The notes under the pieces were generated by a model that saw only the letters and a list, made by a program, of their open reading frames with translations, was not told the origin of the DNA and ran no database searches. DNA of 64,000 bases. Origin: an uncultured Cohaesibacter sp. (GTDB lineage Bacteria; Pseudomonadota; Alphaproteobacteria; Rhizobiales; Cohaesibacteraceae). The position numbers and the translations under genes were made by a program. This document shows positions 37,916-54,857 of the stretch, piece by piece (the stretch's first letter is position 1; the number at the start of each line of letters is the position of its first letter). Location of the stretch: the NCBI RefSeq assembly GCF_963676275.1, contig NZ_OY781091.1:3822775-3886774 (forward strand). Reading direction: 5' to 3'.

Positions 37916-39385
37916 TCAGGCCATGAAGGCCGTGATAAGATCGTCCCATGCGGGCAGATCATCCACCAACTGGTCCCAGAAGGCCTGATCGCGACGGCTG
38001 TCGAAATCCTTCAGCTCGACACCCTGCTGCTCGACCCAGGTATAATAGCCCAGATTGAAGATCCGCTCGCGATCAATGCGGGAAAGCTCCAGCACATGAT
38101 CCACCGATGCGCCTATGATCTGCGCCCCGAAGGCCTGCGCCGCAACCGTCTTGTCGAAGCGGTTGCCGAAATATTTCTGCAAGGCTTTCGGCTGCTCGGT
38201 GCTATACATTTCCGCCCCGTCGGTTGCCACCGTCATGATGACGTCATTGGCACCCAGCTTCTGATATTTGGCCAGCTTGATCGCACCAAGAATGTTGGCA
38301 ATTGAGGATAGACCAAGGGCTGACAGCCGTTCGATCAGGTCCGGCTCGACGCCGCGATAATCCTTGAGATAATCCTGCCCGTCCGGACGGTTGAACACCA
38401 GATTGAGCATGTCGGACCCAGCCTCGGACAGACCGATGACATAGTCCGAATTCATCACGTTATGGATGAGCGGCACATGCTTGTCGCCGATGCCCTGAAT
38501 ATTGTGGTCGCCATAGCCATTATAAAGCAGGGTCGGGCATTCCAGCGCCTCGACCACGGCAATGTCCGCGCCATAATGCTGTTTGAGATGATCCCCGGCG
38601 GCCAGCGTACCGGACGATCCGGAAGCCGAGACAAACCCGGCCATGGTGAGATCTCCCTCGCCGTTGAGCGCATCGAAGATCCGCCCCAAAGCCGCGCCGG
38701 TCACCGCACGATGAGCCGCATAATTGCCAAACTCGGCAAACTGGTTGAGGATCACATTGTCCCGATCCAGCGCAAGCTGGTTGCAGGCATCATAGATTTC
38801 CTTGACATTGCTCTCACAGCCCGGGGTACGGATGATGTCATCATTGCTCAGCGTCCAGCTTTCCAGCCAGTTGAAGCGCTCCTGACTCATCCCCTCGGGC
38901 AGAACAGCAACCCCGTGGCATTCCAGTATGCGTGAGATCGCCACCCCGCCACGGCAATAGTTGCCAGTGGAAGGCCAGACCGCGCGCTGGGAATAGGGAT
39001 CGAAATTGCCCGATACCAGCCGCTGCACAAGGCAGGCATAGGCAGGCAACACCTTGTGCGCCTTGATCATCGGGAAGCGGTTGCCCAGAGCGATGACGAT
39101 CTTGGCATCAACCCCCGTGAGCTCCTTTGGCAGCACGATGTGATCGGGCACATCGACCAGCCCCTTGCGTTCGGCATCATTATGCCAATGGACGCGGAAC
39201 AGGTTGCGCGAATCCGCAGCATCGGGGTCAACGCTTGCCAGATCTGCCGCCATGTTCCCCAGATGGGCAACCGGATCGATCAGTTCGGCAAACAGCGGCA
39301 GGCGAATGTCATATCGGCGAAAAGACTGCGCAACCTTCTTGAGGGCTTTCTCGTCGGCGACTTCAGGTTTGAACACAAATGTCAT
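37916..39385 (-). CDS. Fold-type-II PLP-dependent enzyme of unknown specificity
   Basis: A 489-residue protein of the cysteine synthase/threonine dehydratase superfamily, about 100 residues longer than typical members. The probable Schiff-base lysine lies in MIKAHKVLPAYACLVQRL (about 105-122). The substrate asparagine loop is WPSTGNYCRGGVAISRI, and the phosphate-binding glycine loop is VSASGSSGTLAAGD. The N-terminal 90 residues match no domain I recognise. It overlaps the carbamoylase gene by four bases and ends the TRAP/ureide operon. It probably performs a beta-elimination or lyase step on an amino acid released by the carbamoylases, separate from the diaminopropionate lyase homologue. The substrate is unknown. 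Confidence 0.8.
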   Translation of the reverse strand: MTFVFKPEVADEKALKKVAQSFRRYDIRLPLFAELIDPVAHLGNMAADLASVDPDAADSRNLFRVHWHNDAERKGLVDVPDHIVLPKELTGVDAKIVIALGNRFPMIKAHKVLPAYACLVQRLVSGNFDPYSQRAVWPSTGNYCRGGVAISRILECHGVAVLPEGMSQERFNWLESWTLSNDDIIRTPGCESNVKEIYDACNQLALDRDNVILNQFAEFGNYAAHRAVTGAALGRIFDALNGEGDLTMAGFVSASGSSGTLAAGDHLKQHYGADIAVVEALECPTLLYNGYGDHNIQGIGDKHVPLIHNVMNSDYVIGLSEAGSDMLNLVFNRPDGQDYLKDYRGVEPDLIERLSALGLSSIANILGAIKLAKYQKLGANDVIMTVATDGAEMYSTEQPKALQKYFGNRFDKTVAAQAFGAQIIGASVDHVLELSRIDRERIFNLGYYTWVEQQGVELKDFDSRRDQAFWDQLVDDLPAWDDLITAFMA

Positions 39386-40305
39386 GATTTTTTCGGTTCG
39401 GTAATCGGGGTGTAATTTTCGGGTTCACGGTAGCGCTGGAAATTGAACACATTCTTGCGGATCTCATCGCAGCGATCCAGATCACATTCAAAGAACACGA
39501 TCTCGTCGCCAAGCGTCTTGGCCTGCGCCACGATCTGGCCGGTTGGCGCAATGATGCAGGAGCCGCCAATCAGATCGCAGCCCTCTTCCTTGCCAGCCTT
39601 GGCCACGCCAACAACCCATGTGCCATTCTGATAGGCTCCGGCCTGCATCGACAGCTCATTATGGAAGTCCTGCAGATGATCATGTTCGGGAGCCTGCGGA
39701 TAATGCACCGGCGTATTATAGCCGATCATGATCAGTTCGGCCCCGCGCAGACCAAGCACACGGAAGCTTTCCGGCCAGCGGCGGTCGTTGCAGATGCACA
39801 TACCGAGCTTGCCGCCCAGCGCATCAAAGGTCTGGAAACCGAGATTGCCGGTTTCGAAATAGCGACGCTCCAGATGCTGGAACGGACGCCAGTCTTCATA
39901 TTCACTATGGCCGGGCAGATGGACCTTGCGATATTTGCCGACAATCTCGCCGGACTTGTCGACGATGATCGTGGTGTTGAAATGACGTGTCTTGCCATCC
40001 TCGATGGTCAGTTCAGCATAGCCCAGATAGAAGCCCATCTGGTATTTTCTGGCCGCGTCAAACAAGGGCTGTGTTTCGGCGCTTGGCATCTCTGTTTCAA
40101 AGAAGGCATCGATATCGGCCTGATCCTCGAAATACCAGCGCGGAAAGAAGGTGGTCAGCGCCAGCTCGGGAAAGACGATAAGATCGGTCCCCAGCGCGTG
40201 CGCCTCTTCCATCAGCTTGAGACAACGGGCAACGACTTCAGTGCGTGTTTCTTCACGCGCAATTGGCCCCAATTGGGCAGCGGCAATTTTCAATGGACGG
40301 GACAT
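39382..40305 (-). CDS. N-carbamoyl-D-amino acid hydrolase (nitrilase superfamily)
   Basis: A 307-residue cytosolic amidohydrolase with the nitrilase triad: glutamate in FPELALTTFFPRW, lysine in KYRKVHLPGH and cysteine in MCICNDRRWPE. Flanking segments (QLGPIAREETR, RPFQHLERRYFETG, RGAELIMIGYNTPVH, MQAGAYQNGTWVV) follow the Agrobacterium D-carbamoylase closely, as I recall it, including length (304). It removes CO2 and NH3 from N-carbamoyl-D-amino acids; beta-ureidopropionase-like use is possible. It lies ten bases after the M20 gene and overlaps the PLP-enzyme gene by four bases. Confidence 0.88.
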   Translation of the reverse strand: MSRPLKIAAAQLGPIAREETRTEVVARCLKLMEEAHALGTDLIVFPELALTTFFPRWYFEDQADIDAFFETEMPSAETQPLFDAARKYQMGFYLGYAELTIEDGKTRHFNTTIIVDKSGEIVGKYRKVHLPGHSEYEDWRPFQHLERRYFETGNLGFQTFDALGGKLGMCICNDRRWPESFRVLGLRGAELIMIGYNTPVHYPQAPEHDHLQDFHNELSMQAGAYQNGTWVVGVAKAGKEEGCDLIGGSCIIAPTGQIVAQAKTLGDEIVFFECDLDRCDEIRKNVFNFQRYREPENYTPITEPKKS

Positions 40306-40315
40306 GGCCGTATCC

Positions 40316-41563
40316 TTATTTTTCTTCAGCTTTGGTCAATGCTGCCTGCAGCAGCACATTGGCTCCTGCCTGCAATTCTTCAGGTGCAGTATATTCTTCG
40401 ATATTGTGGCTAATCCCGCCCTGCGAGGGCACGAAGACCATCGCGGTCGGGCAATTGGGCGCAAACATCTGCGCATCATGTCCGGCACCGGACGGCATCT
40501 TGCGCACCGCATAGCCCTGATCCTTGGCGGTCTCGGCAATCAGATCAACCATCGACGCATCAAACATCACCGGCTCGAAGCGGGCCAGCTTGCGCGCCTT
40601 GCAGCTGACGCCTTCCGCCTTGCAGATCGCCTCGATTTCTGCCGCAAGCATGCCTTCCGCCTGTTGCAGCTTGTCCTCGTCGATATTGCGCATATCGACG
40701 GTCATGCGGGCGCGACGTGCGATCACATTGACCAGATTGGGATCAAGCTCATTGACCCCGACGGTGACAACCTGCCCGCCCCCGATCTCCGTGGCCACCT
40801 TGCGGGCGGCAACAGCTATGGCAGCGGCGGTAAATCCGGCATCATGGCGCAAACGCATCGGCGTTGTACCGGCATGGTTGGATTCCCCCTCGATCACATA
40901 TTCGGTCCAGGAAATGCCCTGCACGCCGGTTACCGCGCCGATCAGATCGCCTTCCTCTTCCAGAACCGGCCCCTGTTCCACATGCATTTCAAAGAAGCAG
41001 TAGGGATCAATAGCCCCCGGCTCGGTCTCGCCGGCATAGCCGATGCGGGCCAGCTCTTCGCCAACCACGAAACCATCCGCATCCTTGATCGCCAGCGCTT
41101 CGTCCAAAGCAAGGGAGCCGCGATCCACCGCGCTGCCCATCATGTCGGGCGCAAAGCGCGAGCCTTCCTCATTGGTGAAGGCCCCGACCACGATCGGGCG
41201 CAGCGGCACATAGCCGCTATCCTTGAGCACGGAAATCACTTCAAGCCCCGCCAGAACCCCCAGATTGCCATCATAGAGACCACCGGTGGCCACGGTATCG
41301 ATATGGGAGCCGATCATCACCGGCGGCAGATCTTCCCGCCCCGGCAACAGCCCCTTGAGATTGCCGATGCTGTCAACGGTGACAGTGAGCCCCAGCTCCT
41401 TCATCCAGCCAACGACGCGATCACGCCCCAGCTTGTCCGTATCACTGAGGGCCAATCGACACACGCCGCCGCCCTCAAGCGCCCCATCCTGCCCCAAGGC
41501 CATAAGGCGCCCGAGCAATCGATCAATATCGATGCGCAGATTGCTGAAAGTCGGGTGTGTCAT
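40316..41563 (-). CDS. M20-type N-carbamoyl-L-amino acid hydrolase / allantoate amidohydrolase family
   Basis: A 415-residue metal-dependent amidohydrolase of the hydantoinase/carbamoylase (AmaB/AllC-like) family. Metal and catalytic motifs in order are MIGSHIDTVATGGLYDGNLG, AFTNEEGSRFAPDMMGS, CFFEMHVEQGPVLE, the dimer/lid region SNHAGTTPMRLRHDAG, RNIDEDKL, and PSGAGHDAQMFAP with a C-terminal ISHNIEEY. The family hydrolyses N-carbamoyl-L-amino acids or ureido acids. It overlaps the diaminopropionate-lyase gene by four bases, so the two are translated together. Confidence 0.9.
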   Translation of the reverse strand: MTHPTFSNLRIDIDRLLGRLMALGQDGALEGGGVCRLALSDTDKLGRDRVVGWMKELGLTVTVDSIGNLKGLLPGREDLPPVMIGSHIDTVATGGLYDGNLGVLAGLEVISVLKDSGYVPLRPIVVGAFTNEEGSRFAPDMMGSAVDRGSLALDEALAIKDADGFVVGEELARIGYAGETEPGAIDPYCFFEMHVEQGPVLEEEGDLIGAVTGVQGISWTEYVIEGESNHAGTTPMRLRHDAGFTAAAIAVAARKVATEIGGGQVVTVGVNELDPNLVNVIARRARMTVDMRNIDEDKLQQAEGMLAAEIEAICKAEGVSCKARKLARFEPVMFDASMVDLIAETAKDQGYAVRKMPSGAGHDAQMFAPNCPTAMVFVPSQGGISHNIEEYTAPEELQAGANVLLQAALTKAEEK

Positions 41564-42756
41564 TGTCCAAGTACCTCACTTGCTGATTTGCCAACAATTG
41601 TCTTATAGGCATCCGGATCCGTGTCTCCTTCGCTGTTGACTACGAAGACATGACTGTCTGGACCGAGCCCCATTTCTTTTCTCAAGGCCTCATCCTGCGC
41701 AGCAGCAACAAGACCGGCTAGCCCGGAAATTCCGGTTTCGCCAGCCACCACCGGGCGATCATCGCTGCCCCGTTCGGCCAGATAGCGCATCATCAAAGGC
41801 ACGGCATCGTCATTGAGCGTTACCATGAAATCGGCACCGGTCTCCAGCACCGGCCATGCAATCAGCGAAACCTCGCCACAGGACAATCCGGCCATGGCCG
41901 AGTCGATATCCCCTGTCACGGCAACCGGTTTGCCCGCCACAAGGCTTTCATACCAGCAGGCGCATTTTTCGGGCTCGACGATGGTTGTCACGGGGCGTTT
42001 GTCGCCATAAGCCTGCCAGAAGCGGGCCGCGCTGGCAGACGCCATGCCGCCAACGCCAGCCTGCAGGAATATATGAGTGACGGGAGGCTCACCGTTGAGC
42101 TGCTCAAGCGCCTCATCGACCATCAGCATATAGCCCTGCGTCACATCGCGCGGTGCAATGACGGTTTCGCCATCAGAGGTATCGGGAATGACAAACCAGC
42201 CCTCTTTTCTTGCCGTCTGGTCGGCCATGCGCACCGCATCATCGAACGAGCCATCCACTTGCCGGATTTCCGCGCCATAGGAGGCAATCGCATCCTTGCG
42301 CTGCTGGCTGACCGAAGAACAGACAAAAATGACGCAACGACAGCCAATCATGCGCGCGCCCCAGGCCACCGAGCGGCCATGATTGCCATCGGTCGCGGCT
42401 GTAACCGTCAGACCGGCAACCCGCGCCTTCATGTCAGGGGCCAAAAGATCTGGCGTCTCGATACCCGTCTCCCCGGCAAGATGGCGGCTCAACGCCCGAC
42501 TGACTGCATAGGCACCACCCAGCGGCTTGAAACTGCCCAGCCCGAAGCGCACGGATTCATCCTTGAACCAGATCTTGCCCAGACCAAGCTCGGCAGCAAG
42601 ATCGGATAGATCTCGTATGGGAGAAGGCGCATAGTCGGGCCAGTTGCTGATCGTGCGCCGCGCTATCTCCATGCCGTCAGCCTCAAAGGGAAGTTCAGGC
42701 AGAGAGAGGGAAGCTGCAGGATTTCTGGCCGCCCGCTCAAGAGAAATCTTTATCAT
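41560..42756 (-). CDS. ygeX: Diaminopropionate ammonia-lyase homologue
   Basis: A 398-residue fold-type-II PLP enzyme, the same length I recall for E. coli YgeX. The Schiff-base lysine is in GLGSFKPLGGAYAVSRAL, the asparagine loop in TAATDGNHGRSVAWGARMIG, and the glycine loop in FLQAGVGGMASASAA; YESLVAGKPV and GETGISGLAGL are also typical. The family converts 2,3-diaminopropionate, in both D and L forms, to pyruvate and two ammonia. In E. coli ygeX sits in a gene set with a hydrolase and a hydantoinase used in purine-derived ureide breakdown, a grouping echoed here. Identity of the true substrate is inferred. Confidence 0.88.
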   Translation of the reverse strand: MIKISLERAARNPAASLSLPELPFEADGMEIARRTISNWPDYAPSPIRDLSDLAAELGLGKIWFKDESVRFGLGSFKPLGGAYAVSRALSRHLAGETGIETPDLLAPDMKARVAGLTVTAATDGNHGRSVAWGARMIGCRCVIFVCSSVSQQRKDAIASYGAEIRQVDGSFDDAVRMADQTARKEGWFVIPDTSDGETVIAPRDVTQGYMLMVDEALEQLNGEPPVTHIFLQAGVGGMASASAARFWQAYGDKRPVTTIVEPEKCACWYESLVAGKPVAVTGDIDSAMAGLSCGEVSLIAWPVLETGADFMVTLNDDAVPLMMRYLAERGSDDRPVVAGETGISGLAGLVAAAQDEALRKEMGLGPDSHVFVVNSEGDTDPDAYKTIVGKSASEVLGQ

Positions 42757-42861
42757 TGTCTGTCATTTTCCGGTTTGATCGGCTCTTTTGATCCCTGCCC
42801 CTGATGACCATTGCACATAAGCGCCGGGCAGAAAGCAGGGATCAGAAAAGCCGTTCTGAGG

Positions 42862-42892
42862 GAGAAAATACGGCGGACAGACATGCCCGCCG
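42862..42892 (-). terminator. Intrinsic (attenuating) terminator after dctP
   Basis: On the minus strand CGGCGGGCA pairs with TGTCCGCCG (42871-42892), nine pairs with one wobble, followed at once by TATTTTCT. It lies just past the binding-protein stop and before the lyase gene, so it should lower expression of the downstream enzymes relative to the binding protein. Another pair, TGATCCCTGC (42789-42798) and GCAGGGATCA (42835-42844), lies further on. Confidence 0.72.
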
Positions 42893-42908
42893 CAAAGTTG
42901 GACTGCGA

Positions 42909-43949
42909 TTATTTATATTCTTCGATATTGGCCATCAGGGCATTCAGCATGTCGGTGCCTTCCGCGCCGAACTGCTCTTCGATCAGCTTGCGCACGGCAG
43001 GCTGGGCAATGGCGGCGAATTTGGCCGATTCTTCCGGGCTGACTGCGTTGATTTCCATTTTCTTGGCCAGCTTCGGCAGACCCTTGTCAGATGCTTCGAT
43101 GATGCGCGAAATACCACGACCGGCATTGGTTGCCACCTCGGAAGCCCAATCGACAATTGCCTTATGCTCTGGCTTGAGATTGTTGTAGAAATCGCCATTC
43201 ATGAACCAGACATATGGCGTGATGACATGGTTGGTGATGGAGAGATATTTCTGCACCTCATCGAACTTGGCGAAGGCAATGATCGGGATCGGGTTCATCT
43301 GGCCATCGGCAACACCGGTCTGCAGCGCCGTGTAGACTTCCGCCCATGGCAACGGCGTGGACTGGGCACCGAGCGAATTGACCATGGCCTGATGGGTTGG
43401 CAGGGTCATGGTGCGCAGGCGCAGCCCCTTCATGTCTTCAACCGTCTTGATCGGGCGCTTGGAGTTGGTGAAGGCAAAGAAGCCGCCACTATCCAGCAGG
43501 GCCAGCGTATGCAGGCCGGTCTTGGCATCCATGTCGGCAGCAAATTTCTTGCCGAAGTCGCTCTCCAGCGACATCACCTTGTCTGACACATAGATATTGG
43601 GGAAGGCAAAGGGAATGTCGAACACACCAACCAGCGGATAATGCTGGGCCACGCCGCCGGACGAGGAAATACAGGATTCCACGATGCCGTCACGCACCTG
43701 CTGGATGACTTCATTATCCTTGCCAAGCTGTCCGTTCGGGAAGAGTTTCACCTCGATTTCGCCATTTGACGCAGTTTCCACCAGCGACTTGAACACGGCG
43801 GTCATGGCGCCGGAATGGCTTTCAGTCGGATCGGCAGGGTTCAGATGGCCAATGCGGATGGTGACATCGGCAGCAAGCGCCGTCCCGGCCATCACAGTGG
43901 CTGCGAAGGCTCCCAACATCACAGACTTGACGGAATTCATAAGCTTCAT
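42909..43949 (-). CDS. TRAP transporter substrate-binding protein (ureide operon)
   Basis: A 346-residue DctP-family periplasmic binding protein. Its signal peptide is MKLMNSVKSVMLGAFAATVMAGTALAA, followed by DVTIRIGHLNPADPTESHSG. The substrate-carboxylate arginine region is MKGLRLRTMTLPTHQAM, with VADGQMNPIPIIAFAKFDEV. I chose the ATG at 43947-43949, which has GGAGC seven bases upstream; the frame stays open far upstream but overlaps nothing useful. It follows its DctM gene, giving the unusual order Q-M-P. It presumably binds a carboxylated ureide or amino acid. Confidence 0.92.
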   Translation of the reverse strand: MKLMNSVKSVMLGAFAATVMAGTALAADVTIRIGHLNPADPTESHSGAMTAVFKSLVETASNGEIEVKLFPNGQLGKDNEVIQQVRDGIVESCISSSGGVAQHYPLVGVFDIPFAFPNIYVSDKVMSLESDFGKKFAADMDAKTGLHTLALLDSGGFFAFTNSKRPIKTVEDMKGLRLRTMTLPTHQAMVNSLGAQSTPLPWAEVYTALQTGVADGQMNPIPIIAFAKFDEVQKYLSITNHVITPYVWFMNGDFYNNLKPEHKAIVDWASEVATNAGRGISRIIEASDKGLPKLAKKMEINAVSPEESAKFAAIAQPAVRKLIEEQFGAEGTDMLNALMANIEEYK

Positions 43950-43981
43950 GTGATTGCTCCAATTGTTCTTTTTACTCTGGA

Positions 43982-45262
43982 TTAAAATCCCAGCAGCCTT
44001 GGCACGAACAGGGTCATGTCCTCCCAGAATGCGACCAGAAACAGGACCGCAATTTCTGCCAGAAGGAAGGGCCATAGGGACTTGGTGATATTTTCTATTT
44101 TTTCTTTGGTGACCGATGCGAGCACAAACAGGCACGCACCGACCGGCGGTGTCATGAGGGAAATATTCAGAGCCAGAATGATCATGATCCCGGCATGAAC
44201 CGGGTTCATCCCGATGGTCTGGGTAAGAGGCACCAGAACCGGTGCCAGAATGATGAGCGTCGCATTGATGTCCATAAACAGGCCGATGAACAGCAGCAAC
44301 AGCACGATCATGCCGATGATCACTTGCGGATTATCGCTGACCGAGAGGAAAAAGCTGGCGATGGCTTGCGGGATCTGGTTGAAGGTAAGCCACCAGCCCA
44401 GAATCGAAGCCGAGGCGATGATCAGGAAAATGATGCCGGTGATGCGCGTCGTCCGGACGATCATTTCATAAAGATCCTTGAAGGTGAGCGCCCGATAGAT
44501 CACCCCGCCGACAAACAGCGCATAGGCCACGGCAATGGAGGCAGCCTCGGTCGGGGTTGCAATGCCGCCCAGAATCGAGCCGAGGATGAAGACCGGCAGC
44601 ACCAGCGCCAGAATGCTTTCGCGAAAGGCACTGAAGATGGCCATAAGGCTCGGTCGTTTCTTCGATTTCGGCAGATTGAGCTTTTCACCAAGCGCGGCGA
44701 TCACCGCCATGCAAATGAGGCAGATCAGCAGCCCGGGCAGGATTCCGGCAGCAAACAGACCGGCGATAGAAACCCCCATGATCGAGCCATAGATCACCGC
44801 CAGCGTCGAGGGCGGAATGGTCGGCCCGATGATCGAACCGGCAGCGGTAACAGCGCAGGCAAATGGCTTGGAATAGCCCTGCTTGACCATGGCCGGTACC
44901 AGCGTATTGCCAAAGGCGGCGGCGTCCGCGGTAGCCGCGCCGGTAAGACCGGCAAACATCACCGATGCGACCATGTTGGAATGAGCCATGCCGCCGCGCA
45001 TCCAGCCCACCAGCGCATCGGCAAACTTGACCAGATTGTTGGTGATGCCGGAACGGTTCATGATCTCGCCAGCCAGAATGAAGAATGGCATGGCCAGAAA
45101 GGGAAACAGATCCAGCCCGGCGAACATCCGGTCCGGTGCCATGGAGAGGAATTTGCCCCCGCCCATATCCATGATTCCAACCATTCCGGCAACGCCCAGC
45201 ACGAAGCCGACCGGCATTCCGATCGCCAACAGTCCGAAAAAGGTAACAGCAACCCAGATCAT
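43982..45262 (-). CDS. TRAP transporter large permease, DctM (ureide operon)
   Basis: A 426-residue integral membrane protein with about eleven or twelve hydrophobic segments. DctM-family features are MPFFILAGEIMNRSGITNNL, ATADAAAFGNTLVPAMVKQGY, TAAGSIIGPTIPPSTLAVIYGS and MTPPVGACLFVLASV. It lies two bases after the DctQ gene and carries the Na+-driven transport step. Confidence 0.93.
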   Translation of the reverse strand: MIWVAVTFFGLLAIGMPVGFVLGVAGMVGIMDMGGGKFLSMAPDRMFAGLDLFPFLAMPFFILAGEIMNRSGITNNLVKFADALVGWMRGGMAHSNMVASVMFAGLTGAATADAAAFGNTLVPAMVKQGYSKPFACAVTAAGSIIGPTIPPSTLAVIYGSIMGVSIAGLFAAGILPGLLICLICMAVIAALGEKLNLPKSKKRPSLMAIFSAFRESILALVLPVFILGSILGGIATPTEAASIAVAYALFVGGVIYRALTFKDLYEMIVRTTRITGIIFLIIASASILGWWLTFNQIPQAIASFFLSVSDNPQVIIGMIVLLLLFIGLFMDINATLIILAPVLVPLTQTIGMNPVHAGIMIILALNISLMTPPVGACLFVLASVTKEKIENITKSLWPFLLAEIAVLFLVAFWEDMTLFVPRLLGF

Positions 45263-45264
45263 GC

Positions 45265-45783
45265 TCAGATCTCCACCCTGTCGGCAGCGGCAACACCATC
45301 GCTTGCAATAAAGTCATGAATTGCGACCAGCATCAGCTGACAGCAGGCAAAAATGGCGGCAATCGGCACACCCATGAAGGGCCACCCTTTGGGGATCTGC
45401 GCGATCATCGTGTAGCGACCAAAACCGCGCTCCACGAAACCGATGCCGTAAAAGAAAACCAAAAAGAAAAAGGCGAAGGCGACAAGGTCGAACAACACCG
45501 CCAGCCATTTGCGCATTTGCGGGGGAAAGCGCTCGAACAGCACCAGCACCCCGATATGTTCGCGATGGGCAATGCCGCTGGAAACCGCCAGCAGCGCCAT
45601 CCAGATCATCAGATAACGGGCCAATTCTTCCATAAAGGTCCAGTCCAGCGGCAGCACATAACGCACAAGAACCCCCAGCCAGACATCAAGAACCAGCAAT
45701 ATCATCAGGCCAACGCAGAAGCGCTCAACAAACCAGTTGACCCGTCTGCTCATCAGAGATGCTCTTCTTGCGAGAATTTCCAT
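45265..45783 (-). CDS. TRAP transporter small permease, DctQ (ureide operon)
   Basis: A 172-residue four-helix protein with FCVGLMILLVLDVWLGVLVRYV, WTFMEELARYLMIWMALLAVSSGIAHREHIGV and a C-terminal pair of helices. These match the DctQ layout. It is the first gene of the minus-strand operon, with its promoter in the 100-base gap shared with the divergent RpiR gene. A start at an internal ATG (residue 11) is possible. Confidence 0.88.
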   Translation of the reverse strand: MEILARRASLMSRRVNWFVERFCVGLMILLVLDVWLGVLVRYVLPLDWTFMEELARYLMIWMALLAVSSGIAHREHIGVLVLFERFPPQMRKWLAVLFDLVAFAFFFLVFFYGIGFVERGFGRYTMIAQIPKGWPFMGVPIAAIFACCQLMLVAIHDFIASDGVAAADRVEI

Positions 45784-46868: not shown

Positions 46869-46887
46869 CGTCGGGTGGCACAAATCT

Positions 46888-47784
46888 ATGAGCGAGCAAG
46901 ACAAACCAAAAGCAATCGATGTCAGAATTTCGGAAATTTACGATCAGCTCACAAGTTCCGAACGCCGCTTGGCTGACGTTGTCATCGAGTCGCAAAGCAA
47001 TCTGGCCAGCTTCACAGCCGGTGAGCTGGCCGACAGGGCCCATATTTCAAAAGCCACCGCCGCACGCTTTTTCAAGCGGCTCGGCTATGCCAATTATAAC
47101 GAAGCCCGGATCATGAACCGGCAGGCAGAGGACTGGGGGTCGCCGCTCTATGAATTGACCGGCATCGGCACCAAACGCCTCTCACAGGGCGACTTCGGAC
47201 TGCATATCGCACAGGATCTACAAAATCTGACACGCACGGCCGAAATGCTCGATGCCGACAGTCTGGCAAAGGCCATCGACATGCTGTCCCGCGCCAGACG
47301 CATCTGGTCTCTCGGCTTTCGAAACTCCATGGCTTTGGCCACTTATGCCCGCGCCTTGCTGATCAATATCAAGCCCGATGTGCGCCTCATTCCAAGCGCA
47401 GGCATGTCCTTTGGTGAAGAGCTGGCAGGCATGAACAAGCAGGATGACACCTTCCTCATTTTCGGCTTTCGCCGCCGCCCCGCCCAATTGCGCGACGTAA
47501 TGGAAGCGATCCATGAGGCAGGCGCACCCAGCATATTGATCACCGACATGACAGCAGGCCGCACCTCGCAGCTGGCCACCTTGACCCTGCGCTGCCATTG
47601 CCGCGGCCACACCATGTTTGACAGCTACGCCACCCCCATGAGCCTGATCAATTATATCTGTTCGGGCGTCAGCCAGTCGCTTGGCGATGAATCCGTGGAG
47701 CGCCTCAAGGAGATCGAAAAACTGCATGGCAAGCTGGATCAGCTCGGCGCACCGCTGCTTGGAAAGGAAGTGCATAAAAGTTAG
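46888..47784 (+). CDS. RpiR-family regulator 2 (paralogue)
   Basis: A 298-residue paralogue of the preceding gene, alike in both domains: IYDQLTSSERRLADVVIESQ, ELADRAHISKATAARFFKRLGY, then the SIS segment RRIWSLGFRNSMALATYARALL, FGFRRRPAQLRDVMEAI and TMFDSYATPMSLINYI. Tandem duplication followed by divergence is the simplest history. One copy may control the TRAP operon and the other the ABC operon, or they may form a hetero-regulator. The ribosome site is weak (GGGTGG). Confidence 0.9.
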   Translation: MSEQDKPKAIDVRISEIYDQLTSSERRLADVVIESQSNLASFTAGELADRAHISKATAARFFKRLGYANYNEARIMNRQAEDWGSPLYELTGIGTKRLSQGDFGLHIAQDLQNLTRTAEMLDADSLAKAIDMLSRARRIWSLGFRNSMALATYARALLINIKPDVRLIPSAGMSFGEELAGMNKQDDTFLIFGFRRRPAQLRDVMEAIHEAGAPSILITDMTAGRTSQLATLTLRCHCRGHTMFDSYATPMSLINYICSGVSQSLGDESVERLKEIEKLHGKLDQLGAPLLGKEVHKS

Positions 47785-47798
47785 TCAATTGCTCAAAA

Positions 47799-47816
47799 AT
47801 GAAACAATTTTTTCAT
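47799..47816. promoter_or_regulatory. Near-perfect palindrome upstream of the ABC operon
   Basis: ATGAAACAATTTTTTCAT is an 18-base palindrome with a single mismatched pair, lying in AT-rich DNA before the binding-protein gene. A second inverted repeat, GAGGTGATCG (47849-47858) and CGATCATCCTC (47869-47879), follows. Either could be the operator for an RpiR protein. Confidence 0.55.
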
Positions 47817-47930
47817 ATTGATCTTTTTTTGAAAAAGTATTTTAATCAGAGGTGATCGCAATCAACGACGATCATCCTCACCAGAGCAAGCGACACTCAC
47901 CCTGAGAGTGACTTGAAAGGGAACTTTTTT

Positions 47931-49013
47931 ATGGCTTTTCACATCAATCGCCGCGATCTGCTCAAGAGCGTGGCTGCCGGCGCCGCATTGGGCGCGCTAT
48001 CACCCATCAACCGCGCCATGGCCGCAACCGAGATTTCCTGGATGACCTGGGAAAATCTGGCCAAGCCGGACTATCTCAAGGCATTTCTGGACGCCAACAG
48101 CAGCATCGACATTGCCAAAACCTTCATCGGCACCGATGACGAACAGTTCGCCAAGCTGCGCGCTGGCGGCGCCGATTCCGTCGACCTGATCACACCGGGT
48201 CTCGACAAGGTTGAATATTATGTCGAATCCGGCCTGTTGCAGCCGATCGACTTCGACAAGGTCACCAACGGCAAGCTGCTCTATGACGCCTTTAAATCCT
48301 CGCCTCTGGGCAAGAAAGACGGCAAGACCTACGGCATTCCCTTCTATTGGGGCATCAACCCGGTTGTCTATCGCGCCGACCTGATGGACGGCGAGCCCGA
48401 TTGGTCCGTCTTCTTTGAAGGCGACAAATACAAGGGCAAGCTGGCCATGCGCGACTATGCGCTGGAAGGCATCATGATCGCCGCCATGTATCTGGGCATT
48501 CCGCGCGAGGAAATGTTCGTCATGGACGACAAGCAGCTTGCGGAAATCAAGAAAGCCCTGATGGCGCAGAAGAAACTGCTGCGCACCTACTGGAATTCCA
48601 TCTCCGACCTGACCAACCTGTTCGCGTCCGGCGAAGTGGTCTGCGCCTTCTCATGGGTCCCCCCCTATTATGATCTGAAGGCCCGTGGTCTCGACATGGG
48701 CATGGCAAAACCGAAACAGGGCGTCATCGGCTGGTGCGATACTCTGGCAGTGCCTGCTGGCGTGGAAGGCGAAAAGCTTGATGCCGTCTTCAAGCTGGTC
48801 AACTATCTGCTCGGCCCCGATTACGGCAAGGAACTGGCTGTTGGCGGCCCATATGCACAGAGCACCTCTTCGGCTCGTGACCTCATCACCGATGAACAGA
48901 AAGACAAGATCTTCATCAGTGATCTGAGCATCATGGACTCCTTCGTCTGGAAGCAAAATCCACCGCGCTACAATGAGTGGGTTGCTCTCTGGAACGAAGT
49001 CAAGGCCAGCTAA
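47931..49013 (+). CDS. PotD-like ABC substrate-binding protein with Tat signal
   Basis: A 360-residue extracellular binding protein of the spermidine/putrescine (PotD) type. The N-terminus NRRDLLKSVAAGAALGAL carries a twin-arginine motif, so export of a folded protein via Tat is likely. The mature part has ISWMTWENLAKPDYLKAFLD, SVDLITPGLDKVEYYVESGLLQP, IPFYWGINPVVYR and GWCDTLAVPAGVEGEK. The ATG at 47931 follows AAAGGGA; a TTG 18 bases earlier is unlikely. It heads an ABC operon that ends with the hydantoinase. The ligand may be a cationic or zwitterionic ureide or diamine rather than spermidine. Confidence 0.9.
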   Translation: MAFHINRRDLLKSVAAGAALGALSPINRAMAATEISWMTWENLAKPDYLKAFLDANSSIDIAKTFIGTDDEQFAKLRAGGADSVDLITPGLDKVEYYVESGLLQPIDFDKVTNGKLLYDAFKSSPLGKKDGKTYGIPFYWGINPVVYRADLMDGEPDWSVFFEGDKYKGKLAMRDYALEGIMIAAMYLGIPREEMFVMDDKQLAEIKKALMAQKKLLRTYWNSISDLTNLFASGEVVCAFSWVPPYYDLKARGLDMGMAKPKQGVIGWCDTLAVPAGVEGEKLDAVFKLVNYLLGPDYGKELAVGGPYAQSTSSARDLITDEQKDKIFISDLSIMDSFVWKQNPPRYNEWVALWNEVKAS

Positions 49014-49047
49014 ACCGACACTTTCCGCATCCTGCAAGGCATCTGAA

Positions 49048-50130
49048 ATGAACAAGAAAACCCCTCCTCTGTTAACGGGGATCGCGGTTCACAAGGAATA
49101 TGGTCCCGTGCACGCCGTTCGCGGCATCGATTTCACGATTGCATCAAACACCTATGTGACACTTCTGGGACCTTCGGGATGCGGAAAGACATCCCTTCTG
49201 CGCATGATCGGAGGATTTGAAGACATCTCCTCCGGTGTCATCGAACTGGATGGAAAATCGCTGGCTGGCACCCCGGCCAACCAGCGCCCCATCAACACCG
49301 TTTTTCAAAGTTACGCGCTTTTCCCGCACCTGTCGGTGAAGGAAAATGTCGCCTTCGGCCTTGCCTATCGCAACATGTCCGGCAGCGCGATGAATGAGAA
49401 AGCCGAAGCGGCCCTCGCCATGGTGCAGATGGGCGAAATGGCAGACAGACGCCCGCGCCAGCTTTCCGGCGGGCAACAACAGCGCGTCGCGTTGGCTCGC
49501 GCCATCGCCAATGAACCGCGTATCCTGCTGCTCGACGAACCGCTCTCCGCGCTTGACCGGCGCATGCGCAAGGATATGCAGATTGAACTCAAGGATCTGC
49601 AGCGCCGTCTGGGCACCACCTTCCTGCATGTGACCCATGATCAGGAAGAGGCCTTCGCCCTTTCGGACCATATCATCGTCATGAATGACGGGGCCATCGA
49701 ACAACAGGGAAGCCCAACTGAAATCTATCGCCATCCGGCCAGCGCCTATGTCGCTGATTTCATCGGCGGTGCCAATCTCATCGAAGGCAAGATCTCCGCT
49801 CTCGCCCAAGATGGCAAGGCCAGCATCGAGACTGCGGTCGGCAGCTTCACCGCTCCGGCAGCGCCCCATCTGACAGCTGGCGACAGGGCCGCCCTCGTGC
49901 TTCGTCCCGAACTGATGTCGCTTTCCTCCAGCGAGGGTATTCCGGCAAAGGTTACCCACACCGTGTTTCGCGGTGCCGAATGGCTGGTCGAAACAAGCCT
50001 TGCCGATGGCACCGCGCTGGACATGATGGTTCAGGATATCACCCCGCCGGAAACGGGCAGTGACGTTAGCCTCGCCTTTGATCTTGAGCGCGCATGGATC
50101 ACCGCCTCGAAGGGAACGCAGCAGCCATGA
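49048..50130 (+). CDS. PotA-like ABC ATPase
   Basis: A 360-residue ATPase with Walker [32 protein letters not shown], signature [15 protein letters not shown], Walker [12 protein letters not shown] and H-loop [17 protein letters not shown]-terminal TOBE domain begins near residue 285. The ATG at 49048 is preferred because an upstream extension would overlap the binding-protein gene. Its stop overlaps the next permease start (ATGA). Confidence 0.92.
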
Positions 50131-50996
50131 AACGCATCTCCATCGGCAATGCGCTTTCGGTTCCGGTCTTTGCCGCCGTGGCAGCGCTGTGCCTTGCGCC
50201 GCTGGCGATCCTGTTTGCCTATTCCTTCTTTTCCGTCAGCTTCGTGGCCATCATCAAGGACCCAAGCTTCAAGAACTATATCCGCATCGCGGGTAGCGGC
50301 ACCTACCGCTGGCTGATTTTCAAGGCCTTCCTCTCGGGCGCGGGCATCGCAGCCATTACTGCTATCATCGGCTATCCGGTGGCATGGTTCATCGCCAAGC
50401 GCGTCACCATCTATAAGTCCGCGCTGCTGACCCTGCTGCTTGTCCCGCTCTATACCGGCGATCTGGTACGCATCTTTGCTTGGCGCGTGCTGCTTGGTGC
50501 GGAAGGCGTGCTCAACAGTCTGTTGATCTGGATCGGGCTGGTCGACAAACCCATCGACGCCCTGCTCTTCTCGCCTTTGGCAACCCATATCGTGCTCGCC
50601 TATAATTATCTGCCCTTCATGGTCATTGGCCTCTGGCTGGCCTTCGAGGCGCTGGATGATCGCCTGCTGGAAGCCGCCCAAGATCTTGGCGCAAGCTCTG
50701 CCAGCGCCTTCCTGCGCGTCACCATGCCGCTCACCATGCCCGGCCTCATTGCCGGAGCCCTGATGGTCTTTGTCATGGTCGTGGGTGACTATCTCACCCC
50801 GCAACTGGTCGGCGGTGCCTCCGGCATCACCATCATCAGCGCCATCAACGACCTGTTCGGCACCGCCTTCGACTGGCCGCTCGGCTCGGCGATTGCCTGG
50901 ACCATGCTGGCCATACTGGCCCTGTTCTTTGCCCTTGCCGCCATCGTTATCAGCCGCTCAACGCTGGGCAAGGCGCTTGTGGGAGGGGAAGCATGA
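50127..50996 (+). CDS. PotB-like ABC permease
   Basis: A 289-residue permease with six helices. The N-terminus (VPVFAAVAALCLAPLAILFAYSFF) and EAA loop RLLEAAQDLGASSASAFLRVTMPLTMPGL mark the PotB type. It overlaps the ATPase and the second permease by four bases each, so the three are tightly coupled. Confidence 0.92.
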   Translation: MKRISIGNALSVPVFAAVAALCLAPLAILFAYSFFSVSFVAIIKDPSFKNYIRIAGSGTYRWLIFKAFLSGAGIAAITAIIGYPVAWFIAKRVTIYKSALLTLLLVPLYTGDLVRIFAWRVLLGAEGVLNSLLIWIGLVDKPIDALLFSPLATHIVLAYNYLPFMVIGLWLAFEALDDRLLEAAQDLGASSASAFLRVTMPLTMPGLIAGALMVFVMVVGDYLTPQLVGGASGITIISAINDLFGTAFDWPLGSAIAWTMLAILALFFALAAIVISRSTLGKALVGGEA

Positions 50997-51775
50997 TCTC
51001 TCGCAGGCAATCCGCTCTCGCCTACAGCTGGATATGGCTTGTCTATATCCTGATGTATCTGCCCATCGCAGTGATCGCGATCTTCTCCTTCAATTCATCG
51101 CAGATCATCGCCTTTCCGCTACAGGGCTTCACCACCGACTGGTATGCGCAGGCCCTCACCGACGGGCGATTGCTGGGTGGCCTGAAGCTGACATTTTATG
51201 TCGCCATTCCGACCGCGCTCTTCTCCACCATATTGGGCGCCATGGCGGCCCTTGCCCTGACGCGCTATCCAATGCGCTTTCGCTTCCTGTTGCTGATTTT
51301 CGTTCTGATGCCCTTTCTCATTCCGAAGGTCATTCTGGCAGTTGCCCAATTGATCCTGCTGGCAGACCTCGGCATCGGCCGCAGCCTTTGGACCATCATT
51401 GCCGGCCAGACCATCGTCATTCTGCCCTTCACCACGCTGGTCAATGCCTCGGTCCTGATGCGTATCGACAAGCGCCTTGAGGAAGCCGCCTTTGACCTTG
51501 GTGCAAGCCATTTCTCCACCTTCAAGCGGGTAACCCTGCCGCTGATGAAAAATGGCCTGATGGCCTCCTGGTTCATCGCTTTCGTGCTGTCATCCTCGGA
51601 ATATGTGCTGACATCCTTCCTTTCAGGGCGAGAACAGCCGCTTTCCATCCTGGTCGCATCGGATTTTCGTTTCAACGTCTCTCCAGCGCTTGATTCCATC
51701 GCGCTCATGCTGGTCCTTGCCAATATCGCCCTCATCGGCCTTGGTGAATTCATCCGCAGGAGATCCCAGAAGTAA
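50993..51775 (+). CDS. PotC-like ABC permease
   Basis: A 260-residue permease beginning MISRRQSALAYSWIWLVYIL with EAA loop KRLEEAAFDLGASHFSTFKRVTLPLM and PotC-like start features YLPIAVIAIFSFNSSQ. It completes the ABC importer and lies 18 bases before the hydantoinase gene. Confidence 0.92.
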   Translation: MISRRQSALAYSWIWLVYILMYLPIAVIAIFSFNSSQIIAFPLQGFTTDWYAQALTDGRLLGGLKLTFYVAIPTALFSTILGAMAALALTRYPMRFRFLLLIFVLMPFLIPKVILAVAQLILLADLGIGRSLWTIIAGQTIVILPFTTLVNASVLMRIDKRLEEAAFDLGASHFSTFKRVTLPLMKNGLMASWFIAFVLSSSEYVLTSFLSGREQPLSILVASDFRFNVSPALDSIALMLVLANIALIGLGEFIRRRSQK

Positions 51776-51793
51776 ATTGGAAAGGACAATCTC

Positions 51794-53209
51794 ATGGCTG
51801 ATTTTGACGTGCTGATCCGTGGCGGCACATGCGTTACGGCGGCAGACACCTTTTCCGCCGATATCGCCATCAAGGATGGCACCATCATCGCAACGGGCAA
51901 GGATCTGGGCTCCGCCGACAAGGAGATCGACGCATCCGGCCTGCTGGTCATGCCCGGTGGCATCGACAGCCACGTCCATCTGGCCCAGCCCTCCGCCCCC
52001 GGCACCCCGCAAATGGTGGACGGTTTTGAAACCGGCACCCGCTCGGCCATTGCCGGAGGCACGACCACGGTCATTCCTTTTGCCCAGCAGCCGCGCGGTG
52101 CGGGCTTGAGGGAAACCGTCGAGGATTACCATTCCCGCGCGCGCGGACAGGCCTATTGCGACTATGGCTTTCACCTGATCATCACCGACCCGACCCCGCA
52201 GGTTCTGGGGCAGGAACTGCCAGCCCTCGTCGCCGACGGCTACACCTCCTTCAAGGTCTTCATGACCTATGACGACATGGTGCTCAATGATCGCCAGCTG
52301 CTGGAAGTGTTCGATTGTGCCAAGGATTGCAAGGCCCTCGTCATGGTCCATGCCGAAGGCTATGACGCCATCCGCTACATGACCGAAAAGCTGGAACGCG
52401 AAGGCAAGACCGCCCCCTATTATCACGGCGTCTCGCGCCCGCAGATCGTAGAGCGGGAAGCCGCCCATCGCGCCATCAGCCACGCCCAGCTCATCGATGT
52501 GCCGATCATGATCGTCCATGTCTCAGGCCGCGAGGCCATGGAGCAGATCCGCTGGGCCCAGAAGAAGGGCATCAGGATCTTTGGCGAAACCTGCACCCAA
52601 TATATCGCCCTCACAGCCGACGACATGAAGGGCTTCAACATGGATGACAGCGGCAGCAAATATGTCTGCTCGCCACCGCCCCGCGATCACGACAGCTGGG
52701 ACGCCATCTGGGAAGGCATCCGCGGCGGTGTCTTCCAGACCTTCTCCTCCGATCACTGCCCCTTCTTCTATGAAGGCCCTCAAGGCAAGATGACCGGCAA
52801 GGCCAAAAGCTCCTTCCGCTGGGTTCCGAACGGTTTGCCGGGCGTGGAGAACCGCATGCAGATTTTCTTCTCCGAAGGCGTTGGCAAGGGCCGCATCACG
52901 CTGAATGAATTTGTCGCCCTCACCTCGACCAACCACGCCAAGATGTATGGCCTCTATCCCAAGAAAGGCTCCATCGCTCCGGGCTTTGACGCTGACATCG
53001 TCATCTGGGATCCGAACCGGGAAGAGACCATCACCCAGGCCGGCATGCACCATGCCGCCGACTACACCCCCTATGAGGGCCACAGGGTCAAGGGCTGGCC
53101 CGTGATGACACTGGTGCGCGGCAAGATCGCCTGCGAAGAAGGCAAGATCACCGGCTCAGTCGGCGATGGTCAGTTCCTCAAGCGCGGCTATTCGGCCTTC
53201 GTAAAATAG
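51794..53209 (+). CDS. hydA: Hydantoinase / dihydropyrimidinase
   Basis: A 471-residue amidohydrolase with the binuclear-metal site of cyclic-amide hydrolases: HxH in MPGGIDSHVHLAQPSAPGTP, the carboxylated lysine in TSFKVFMTYDDMVL, histidines in MVHAEGYDAIRY and IMIVHVSGREAM, and the catalytic aspartate in TFSSDHCPF. It opens hydantoin or dihydropyrimidine rings to N-carbamoyl amino acids. A GGAAAGG ribosome site precedes the ATG. Its products are the natural substrates of the two carbamoylases encoded at 39382-41563. The unusual CTQYIALTADDMKGFNMD region is normal for the D-hydantoinase branch. Confidence 0.93.
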   Translation: MADFDVLIRGGTCVTAADTFSADIAIKDGTIIATGKDLGSADKEIDASGLLVMPGGIDSHVHLAQPSAPGTPQMVDGFETGTRSAIAGGTTTVIPFAQQPRGAGLRETVEDYHSRARGQAYCDYGFHLIITDPTPQVLGQELPALVADGYTSFKVFMTYDDMVLNDRQLLEVFDCAKDCKALVMVHAEGYDAIRYMTEKLEREGKTAPYYHGVSRPQIVEREAAHRAISHAQLIDVPIMIVHVSGREAMEQIRWAQKKGIRIFGETCTQYIALTADDMKGFNMDDSGSKYVCSPPPRDHDSWDAIWEGIRGGVFQTFSSDHCPFFYEGPQGKMTGKAKSSFRWVPNGLPGVENRMQIFFSEGVGKGRITLNEFVALTSTNHAKMYGLYPKKGSIAPGFDADIVIWDPNREETITQAGMHHAADYTPYEGHRVKGWPVMTLVRGKIACEEGKITGSVGDGQFLKRGYSAFVK

Positions 53210-53230
53210 AGCATAAAATAGAGACATAGA

Positions 53231-53553: not shown

Positions 53554-53570
53554 ATAGGGGTTTCCCCTAT
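53554..53570. promoter_or_regulatory. Short perfect palindrome upstream of the cyclase gene
   Basis: ATAGGGG-TTT-CCCCTAT is a seven-base perfect inverted repeat with a three-base loop. It may be an operator or a small hairpin in the leader; no further support is visible. Confidence 0.4.
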
Positions 53571-53924
53571 TGCCTAATTAACCACGATACGGTACGACTA
53601 TCTCGCAAAGTGGGATAGGCTCGGTTTTGACAGCCGACCGTAGTGGAGGAACCCAAGGTGATTGAAGTCGCGTGCGACGCGGTATTCCAGGCCAATTTCA
53701 TCAAGTGAATGGAGTGCCCGATCACCTGTCACCAACGTTCCCTGCGCCCTTTAACAAGGCGCATGGTACGGACTGTTGATGAGGCCCGTCAGGTGTCTCT
53801 TTGGCTTTTGCTCACGTCCCCAGGCTTTTGCCCGCGCCTTGTTCGAGCAATCGGATCGAGGCCCGAAGGGCGCGTAATCGTTAAGAATGCTCTCATGTGA
53901 AGAGCGATAATGATGGAGTTAAAA

Positions 53925-54857
53925 ATGGGAAAAAAAGTCTTCGTTGATCTGAGCCATCCGTTTTTCGGTGACATGCCACTGTGGCCATACTTTTCCAAAC
54001 CGGAAATTGCCCCCATGCACAGCATGGCAAAGGCAGGTGTTTTGACTCAGTCGATCAAATGCACCATGCATACCGGCACCCACTGCGACGCACCGCGTCA
54101 CGTCATGGAACGCATGTTCGACGGCAGCCGCGCTCTTTACACCCACGAACTGCCGGTTGACGCCTATTGCGGCGACGCTGTCTGCCTTGACGTTCGCGTT
54201 GATCGCTGGAAGCTGATCATGCCGGAAGATCTGGAAGCTGCGGTAGAACGCGCAGGCATGAAACCGGCTGATCTGGAAGGCATGGTTGTCTGCCTCAACA
54301 CCGGCATGCACCGCAAATTTGACGATTCCAAAGACTATTATCACTATTCTCTGGGCACCGGCATCGACGCTGGCAAATGGTTCGTCAAGCACAAGGTCAA
54401 AGTGGTCGCTCTCGACCAGCAGGCTCTCGACCATCCGCTGCATACATCCATGGGCAATAACGGCACATGCATGAATCTGCCCGGTTATTCCGGCCGCACC
54501 ATCGTTGAGGAATTCATCGACGAATTCGGCGAAGAAGCCTATGCAGAATTTGACCGCGCAACCTACATCAAGGTTCATGGTCAGGCCAAATATGACGAGA
54601 AATTCGGCGAGCTGGAAGCAACCGGCAACTGCGGCACCTGGGAACCTTGCCACAAATATCTGCTGGGCAACGGCATCGTCGGCGTGGAAAATCTGGGCGG
54701 CGATCTCGACAAGGTCAAGAACAAGAAATTCCGCTTCTTCGCTCTGCCAATCCGCTGGCACATGGGCGATGGCTCGATGGTTCGCTGCGTAGCAGAAATC
54801 GACGAGGACGATCTCGTCGAAGCAGAACCACGCCTCTACAAATATGGTGCAATGTAA
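53925..54857 (+). CDS. Cyclase-family (kynurenine formamidase/isatin hydrolase-like) amidohydrolase
   Basis: A 310-residue metal-dependent hydrolase. It starts KKVFVDLSHPFFGDMPLWPY, and the metal-binding signature is MHTGTHCDAPRHVMERMFDG (HxGTHxDxPxH). Further conserved parts are VALDQQALDHPLH and NGTCMNLPG. The family hydrolyses cyclic or N-formyl amides, and it is somewhat longer than typical kynurenine formamidases (about 210-260). GGAG lies seven bases before the ATG at 53925. It stands after the hydantoinase but behind a terminator, so it has its own promoter. A second ring-opening or deformylating step in ureide breakdown is plausible. Confidence 0.85.
   Translation: MGKKVFVDLSHPFFGDMPLWPYFSKPEIAPMHSMAKAGVLTQSIKCTMHTGTHCDAPRHVMERMFDGSRALYTHELPVDAYCGDAVCLDVRVDRWKLIMPEDLEAAVERAGMKPADLEGMVVCLNTGMHRKFDDSKDYYHYSLGTGIDAGKWFVKHKVKVVALDQQALDHPLHTSMGNNGTCMNLPGYSGRTIVEEFIDEFGEEAYAEFDRATYIKVHGQAKYDEKFGELEATGNCGTWEPCHKYLLGNGIVGVENLGGDLDKVKNKKFRFFALPIRWHMGDGSMVRCVAEIDEDDLVEAEPRLYKYGAM

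Follow-up and report, generated by a model that had tools for sequence, protein, structure and literature searches.

Two opposite-strand arms at one locus

The 64-kb stretch of DNA analyzed here (the window; NZ_OY781091.1, positions 3,822,775 to 3,886,774) belongs to an uncultured Cohaesibacter sp. whose genome is a single contig of 5.03 Mb. Positions 37916 to 54857 of the window hold a locus that combines hydantoinase, carbamoylase and diaminopropionate ammonia-lyase (DAL) genes with those of two importers. An open frame is present at the coordinates of every gene named in a preliminary description of this DNA, and profile matches agree with the families given there. The span resolves into two opposite-strand transcription units and a separate cyclase gene. 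The first unit, the TRAP arm (minus strand, 37916 to 45783), encodes the small permease DctQ (45265 to 45783; PF04290, E = 1.7e-25), the large permease DctM (43982 to 45262; PF06808, E = 1.5e-113) and the substrate-binding protein DctP (42909 to 43949; PF03480, E = 1.6e-77) of a TRAP importer, followed by DAL (41560 to 42756), an M20 amidase of the hydantoinase/carbamoylase family (40316 to 41563), a D-carbamoylase of the nitrilase fold (39382 to 40305; CN_hydrolase) and PLP2, a fold-type II pyridoxal phosphate (PLP) enzyme of 489 amino acids with a weak PALP match (37916 to 39385; 30 bits versus a cut-off of 35). The regulator gene rpiR1 (plus strand, 45884 to 46753; HTH_6 and SIS domains) diverges from this arm. 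The second unit, the Pot arm (plus strand, 46888 to 53209), is headed by the regulator RpiR2 (46888 to 47784; again HTH_6 and SIS domains), and continues with a PotD-type binding protein (47931 to 49013; SBP_bac_8) with a Tat-like signal (TAT_signal 22 bits, just below the cut-off of 22.7), a PotA-type ATPase (49048 to 50130; ABC_tran and TOBE_2), the PotB-type and PotC-type permeases (50130 to 50996 and 50993 to 51775; both BPD_transp_1) and a D-hydantoinase (51794 to 53209; TIGR02033, 541 versus 393 bits).

The D-carbamoylase is 59% identical to the D-carbamoylase of structure 1fo6, presumably from Agrobacterium, and the alignment shows conservation of Glu47, Lys127, Cys172, Asn173, Arg175 and Arg176. 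Among these we take Glu47-Lys127-Cys172 to be the catalytic triad and Arg175/Arg176 to be the arginine pair that binds the substrate. The M20 amidase matches TIGR01879 (400 versus 204 bits), and TIGR03526, the YgeY family, is not among its matches, a result that covers the M20 enzyme of the window; the solved structures closest to it include L-carbamoylases and N-carbamoyl-beta-alanine amidohydrolase. DAL is the sole protein of its genome over the DAL cut-off (NF006058, 435 versus 276 bits), it scores 320 bits against the YgeX equivalog TIGR03528 with a cut-off of 532, and the Lys, Asp and Asp of its motifs FK.LGG, ATDGNHGR and DT align with those of structure 5ygr. By sequence, the closest solved structure to the hydantoinase is the D-hydantoinase 1nfg, and the enzyme shares 40 to 41% identity with HyuA from L126 and from G065 (surveyed loci and genomes are designated L and G). 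No Asp_Glu_race match that would indicate a hydantoin racemase was found among the proteins of the stretch scanned with Pfam, and there is no PydA (dihydropyrimidine dehydrogenase) among the annotated genes of the stretch, to which that search was confined.

Recurrence and separability of the two arms

The surroundings of the Pot arm tie the two units together, and this evidence is no weaker than that for their separability. PotD is rare: a match with E = 1e-90 occurs in 1 of 385 genomes across the class and in 22 of 397 across the order, nine of the latter with at least 76% identity. Twelve places with a PotD of at least 75% identity were read, namely six in Cohaesibacter (including the window), two on Rhizobium plasmids and one each in G686, G725, G671 and G065; the contigs of G686 and G725 stop just past RpiR2. 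A hydantoinase is a neighbor at 11 of the 12 places, a D-carbamoylase at nine and DAL at eight. On the plasmids of Rhizobium daejeonense and Rhizobium sp. ACO-34A, genes for a D-carbamoylase, an M20 amidase and DAL diverge from an RpiR2-PotDABC-hydantoinase unit, so that the Pot arm (67 to 83% identical to that of the window) and the enzyme set are both present; the identities to the enzymes of the window are 51% for DAL, 58 to 59% for the M20 amidase and 67 to 68% for the D-carbamoylase. These two plasmid stretches differ from the window in having one RpiR and no TRAP genes, PLP2 or cyclase, and their records are annotated gene by gene only. The idea that the arms are linked only in Cohaesibacter was dropped, because the Rhizobium plasmids carry both parts.

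Midpoint-rooted FastTree trees of DAL and the M20 amidase (29 and 25 sequences, the short DAL of L094 being left out) put the window among TRAP arms from other genera, with the Rhizobium pair standing apart (support of 0.99 in each). The D-carbamoylase tree has a weak backbone; in it the Rhizobium pair clusters with L263 and L195 (0.98) and is separate from the Cohaesibacter clade (1.00). The same Pot arm thus accompanies two distinct enzyme operons, an argument in favor of a functional connection, and the recurrent pairing, as judged from these sequences, argues for a single pathway. In the Kiloniellaceae genome G065, orthologs of PotDABC (64 to 78% identity) adjoin a hydantoinase that shares 72% identity with the L126 HyuA; a TRAP arm (L065) is found elsewhere in that genome. 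A sister group of PotD with 46 to 48% identity was read at seven loci (L264 to L270), one of which (L266) has DAL and D-carbamoylase genes beside PotD. A further sister PotD (about 47% identity), on a Rhizobium ruizarguesonis plasmid (L271:1-9501), belongs to an operon that also encodes a creatininase-family protein, a nucleoside deaminase and an amidohydrolase, and may serve the import of another small nitrogen heterocycle.

A survey of PLP2 in 61 genomes, including that of the window and with 18 in the genus Cohaesibacter, found a strong match in 11, nine of them in this genus, and the surroundings were read in all of these except the genome of the window (10 of 11). The entire gene order, with both arms full and adjacent, recurs in Cohaesibacter G001, G003, G004 and G010, and a contig of Cohaesibacter marisflavi (L051) follows the order of the window as far as the locus extends, with 64 to 98% amino acid identity. 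G015 keeps the enzymes of both arms and the Pot-hydantoinase genes, and the stretch read contains neither DctQMP nor the cyclase gene. In G008 and G016 only the TRAP arm is present, with no PotD in the genome and no Pot-hydantoinase genes in the stretch read. In the distant G056 and G058, PLP2 is placed among other neighbors. Counting the window, DctP, DctM and DctQ occur together in seven of the nine PLP2-bearing Cohaesibacter loci. PotD (E = 1e-90) was found in seven of the 61 genomes, six of them Cohaesibacter, all with the DAL-M20-D-carbamoylase operon; the seventh, G029 (47% identity), is without this operon. A remnant with the M20 amidase and PLP2 as the only such genes in the stretch is present in G012 (L039, 15126-17961), and the whole of that genome is without PotD or a DAL over the cut-off.

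Beyond these relatives, DAL, the M20 amidase, the D-carbamoylase and PLP2 are found together in 10 loci among the best 80 of at least 504 with PLP2 relatives: L051 and nine loci of alpha- or gammaproteobacterial metagenome-assembled genome (MAG) contigs (L052, L059, L061, L065, L070, L076, L077, L088 and L094). In four further loci of the same 80, a D-carbamoylase adjoins PLP2 where the contig ends (L058, L062, L084 and L085). None of these 14 loci has a hydantoinase in its stretch, L051 being cut off before that position. The two arms are separable, since the TRAP arm occurs without the Pot arm. The preliminary description had joined them in one linked locus, which is borne out by the pairing on two Rhizobium plasmids and does not extend to G008 and G016. 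The recurrence of the full gene order in four other Cohaesibacter genomes makes a chance arrangement unlikely. The locus is a real, conserved catabolic system with strong evidence at the gene level and, to judge from its sequences, probably a functional one.

RpiR1 and RpiR2 are paralogs with about 35% identity. In other genera, too, a divergent RpiR gene precedes the TRAP arm (e.g., L059, L061, L065, L070 and L077), and on the two Rhizobium plasmids the Pot arm is headed by an ortholog of RpiR2 (67 to 69% identity). A common operator for both arms was considered and rejected. The upstream regions share only AT-rich matches and each arm has its own upstream sequence conserved among Cohaesibacter, and co-regulation of the arms is therefore unsupported.

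The cyclase-family hydrolase (plus strand, 53910 to 54857; PF04199), which starts about 700 bp past the stop of the hydantoinase, had been listed among the enzymes of the locus. The sequence read in G015 and that read in R. daejeonense do not contain its gene, and it is probably peripheral to the system and not a stable member. On the other side of the locus, the TRAP arm is directly adjoined at 34991 to 37850 by genes for N-acetylglucosamine-6-phosphate deacetylase, a ROK-type sugar kinase and CutC, the last two of which also adjoin the locus in G001, G003, G004, G010 and G012.

A proposed route from ureidomethyl-hydantoin to pyruvate

In the reductive breakdown of uric acid by Escherichia coli and Clostridioides difficile, ureidomethyl-hydantoin (UMH) is converted to 2,3-diureidopropionate (DUPA) by HyuA and then to albizziin by YgeW or UacY, after which YgeY and YgeX form pyruvate, as demonstrated biochemically by Li et al. 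(2025, PMC12507026). A commentary presents the order of the ureido cleavages as unsettled and mentions that an R configuration has been proposed (PMC12990295), which would suit a D-carbamoylase.

The enzymes of the window fit the steps from UMH to pyruvate one for one. We consider, with a probability of roughly 55%, that the locus serves to import and degrade compounds in which 2,3-diaminopropionate carries ureido groups, the likeliest being UMH and DUPA from reductive uric acid breakdown. The Pot importer would bring in the ring form, UMH, which the D-hydantoinase would open to (R)-DUPA, and the TRAP importer would take up the ring-opened acid directly. The D-carbamoylase would hydrolyze the 2-ureido group, a step that falls to YgeW in E. 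coli and to UacY in C. difficile, the M20 amidase would hydrolyze the 3-ureido group in the manner of YgeY, and DAL would act in the role of YgeX to form pyruvate and ammonia, for overall products of pyruvate, ammonia and CO2. Each arm would have its own RpiR regulator. The sequences directly show the gene content, its conservation, the repeated pairing of the arms and, in one MAG, the proximity to genes of the upper pathway; substrates, step order, stereochemistry, transporter ligands and regulation are those that we infer for the system. None of the proposed steps needs oxygen. The supply alternatives seen in Cohaesibacter, with the Pot-hydantoinase branch kept without DctQMP in G015 and the TRAP branch without the Pot-hydantoinase genes in G008 and G016, were counted in favor of this route.

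This route agrees with the earlier proposal that a cyclic ureide built on 2,3-diaminopropionate is opened, decarbamoylated and cleaved to pyruvate, which is still the best reading; the "diureidopropionate-yielding ring" named there matches UMH, an intermediate in E. coli (PMC12507026). The preliminary description knew of no aerobic alphaproteobacterial system with such a composition. The composition does have a precedent, as the locus appears to be a variant of the described reductive uric acid pathway. In each, one locus combines a D-type hydantoinase, a 2-ureido enzyme, an M20 hydrolase and a lyase for diaminopropionate, with pyruvate as the proposed end product. The window differs in giving the 2-ureido step to a D-carbamoylase, in having an M20 enzyme of the carbamoylase family instead of YgeY and in having TRAP and Pot importers proposed for intermediates. 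Its organism is without YgfK and SsnA over the cut-off and would therefore need to import intermediates, as the two importers suggest. The words carbamoylase, nitrilase, TRAP, Alphaproteobacteria and Rhizob are absent from the main text of PMC12507026. A literature search that covered few subscription papers found nothing joining N-carbamoyl-D-amino acids with diaminopropionate or uric acid and hydantoinase, and nothing on hydantoin with a TRAP transporter and a carbamoylase or on Cohaesibacter and hydantoin, and an earlier description is possible.

A direct genomic link to urate is found in L076, a contig of an uncultured Afifella MAG that has the order DctQ-DctM-DctP-DAL-M20-D-carbamoylase-PLP2, with 55 to 86% identity to the window. 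Convergent with this arm are genes for an XdhD-like protein (769 bits, under the cut-off of 830), an XdhB-like FAD subunit, SsnA (NF005540, 482 versus 444 bits; TIGR03314, 452 bits, just under 455.5) and YgfK (910 bits versus a cut-off of 835). YgfK is preceded at about 1 kb by a gene for a purine permease (Xan_ur_permease), and an IS240-type transposase gene is close by. G+C ranges from 0.55 to 0.64 along the contig, and third-position G+C from 0.63 to 0.71 in the arm and from 0.71 to 0.78 in the urate genes. The DAL of the arm is the sole one over the cut-off in this MAG, in which YgeW was not detected; at E = 1e-60, YgeW had no match in any of the six TRAP-arm genomes tested, including that of the window.

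Relatives of the D-carbamoylase at E = 1e-80 are present in 67 of 385 alphaproteobacterial genomes, and the surroundings of most of the best matches were read (40 loci in 35 genomes). DAL is present in nine of these loci, a count taken in favor of the route, a hydantoinase in six and both in none, the hydantoinase of L225 (31% identity) being left uncounted. In a tree of 66 sequences and 1fo6, which includes near duplicates (L042/L043/L051 and L076/L184), the window falls in a clade of 30 (support of 0.916) with 23 DAL and no hydantoinase neighbors within 7 kb, whereas a clade of 17 (0.978) has seven hydantoinase and no DAL neighbors within the same distance. A third clade, of 19 (0.95), has five DAL neighbors and one hydantoinase neighbor. 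The Agrobacterium-type enzyme 1fo6 lies inside the clade of the window, grouped with L208 and L210, which have DAL neighbors (0.932). A clean split of the family by context is weakened by the support of 0.146 for the deep split in the tree with 1fo6. The frame of more than 700 amino acids in L208 and L210 was considered as a DAL/D-carbamoylase fusion and rejected, as DAL lies in another, overlapping frame.

Several results weigh against the proposed route. YgfK is over the cut-off in 2 of 15 genomes tested and in 1 of 13 with a TRAP-type locus, the L076 MAG, four of the 13 being partial loci at contig ends and the MAGs being of unstated completeness; because of this count, a single MAG contig and the wider family of PLP2 are what ties the system to urate. 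At E = 1e-150, YgfK was found in none of the 385 genomes of the class, with two candidates scored per genome, and SsnA was over the cut-off in none of the 61 genomes, the genome of the window being included in both searches. The M20 amidase falls outside the YgeY family, DAL is below the YgeX equivalog cut-off (320 versus 532 bits) and PLP2 has no assigned step. Among the 40 D-carbamoylase loci, six have a hydantoinase without DAL and 25 have neither, and several have DAL with no adjacent M20 gene (L193, L207, L208 and L210). In the DAL tree, the TRAP-arm locus L195 does not fall within the TRAP clade. We know of no natural source of UMH or DUPA beyond urate-degrading bacteria.

The preliminary description gave the two carbamoylases opposite stereochemical roles. 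A pathway built on such roles, in which they split the two enantiomers of one alpha-ureido acid from a racemizing hydantoin, e.g., 5-(aminomethyl)hydantoin, and DAL degrades D- and L-diaminopropionate with no beta-ureido group involved, is the foremost of the alternatives and still an unlikely one. It is in keeping with the L-carbamoylases among the nearest solved structures of the M20 enzyme and with the five loci that have DAL and a D-carbamoylase without an adjacent M20 gene (the four named above and L266). However, it requires two stereo-complementary enzymes downstream of a D-type hydantoinase, and it leaves unexplained both the TRAP-arm stretches that have no hydantoinase and the association with YgfK and SsnA in L076. 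The two enzymes probably act instead on two different ureido groups.

General utilization of hydantoins or dihydropyrimidines, with DAL and PLP2 as broad amino acid lyases that have no special diaminopropionate substrate, seems more doubtful still. The window shares a D-hydantoinase and a D-carbamoylase with classical hydantoin utilization operons, and the pair is found side by side without DAL in the six loci of the class noted above and on a Sulfitobacter plasmid. The window differs from these operons in its additional M20 amidase and DAL and in the lack of a racemase domain among the proteins scanned, and DAL-M20-D-carbamoylase operons from unrelated genera start with DAL. The clade of 17 D-carbamoylases with seven hydantoinase neighbors and no DAL is also apart from that of the window, in which DAL is the usual neighbor. 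Least probable is a system that scavenges ureido amino acids of plants or microbes, e.g., albizziin, with no tie to purines, the hydantoinase opening hydantoins from their cyclization: DAL homologs (42 to 46% identity) do occur on plasmids of rhizobia from Leucaena, Calliandra and Prosopis, and Rhizobium strains from soil and Agave rhizosphere carry the complete minimal version on plasmids, but the alpha-amino group of albizziin is free, so that the D-carbamoylase would idle, and each of the nine full TRAP-type loci outside Cohaesibacter among the 80 comes from a MAG contig, none of their titles naming a plant isolate.

The degradation of imported UMH and DUPA would, if true, carry the newly described reductive uric acid route into organisms that lack the upper half, in the form of an import-and-finish module, and would predict two new transporter specificities. 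The locus offers a testable physiological substrate for the hydantoinase/D-carbamoylase pair. D-carbamoylases are an enzyme family used in industry, and the route would, if true, give them a natural job. A broader and tentative extension is that a large D-carbamoylase branch, including the industrial Agrobacterium-type enzymes, evolved for the 2-ureido group of reductive-purine fragments, and that soil and marine bacteria would feed on UMH and DUPA that urate-reducing bacteria leak, through dedicated TRAP and Pot importers, with PLP2 shared with urate operons from genomes that lack YgeX.

PLP2 and its other gene neighborhoods

PLP2, the second PLP enzyme of the preliminary description, does go with the TRAP arm and stands outside the minimal pathway. 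Its sequence matches in the PDB are only to chains of cysteine synthase, O-acetylserine sulfhydrylase and cystathionine beta-synthase. The family is widespread; its partner is DAL in TRAP arms and a second PALP protein in reductive-urate clusters. In the latter, relatives of PLP2 are found in operons with genes for XdhD, an SsnA-like protein, HyuA, YgfK, YgeW, YgeY and carbamate kinase. The best case is L126, in which the SsnA-like frame is short and below the cut-off (251 versus 444 bits). The second PALP protein, designated PALP15 and present in 10 loci, adjoins PLP2. Eleven MAGs have PLP2 beside urate-pathway-type genes, with PALP15 in the locus in nine, YgeW over the cut-off in six and DAL over the cut-off in none, and PLP2 therefore goes with DAL or, mostly, with PALP15. 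The "YgeW" label used in the clustering of genes is loose, since the L114 genome carries it with no YgeW at E = 1e-60. The clustering of PLP2 loci left out L043 (G010), which is the same contig as L051, and the PLP2 alignment left out L059 because of an internal stop.

The presence of PLP2 beside DAL in the window and beside urate genes in the 11 MAGs without DAL points to a missing enzyme of the route, and the candidate roles are a diaminopropionate lyase, an albizziin lyase or a racemase. In two reductive-urate-type operons (L126:938-16080 and L113:9971-15261), from genomes without a DAL over the cut-off, the place of YgeX is held by PLP2 and PALP15.

PLP2 has other neighborhoods as well. 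Seven clusters (L080, L086, L098, L105, L108, L109 and L110) combine it with one or two M24 proteins (creatinase/ectoine-hydrolase-like), an M20 amidohydrolase and, in part, an arylmalonate-decarboxylase-family protein, a DMSO/TMAO-reductase-family protein and a DAL homolog, and may represent a further catabolic pathway. In Aminobacter, Mesorhizobium and Pseudohoeflea (L099, L103, L121 and L129), PLP2 occurs with a DAL homolog, a TPP-dependent enzyme and a molybdenum-hydroxylase-type large subunit, which is annotated in L099; the DAL homolog is adjacent to PLP2 in L099, L103 and L129 and about 6 kb off in L121. In L047 (7326-17922), a gamma-glutamyltranspeptidase gene is followed by a DAL homolog and PLP2, and the gene of a peptide-type binding protein (SBP_bac_5) lies on the same stretch.

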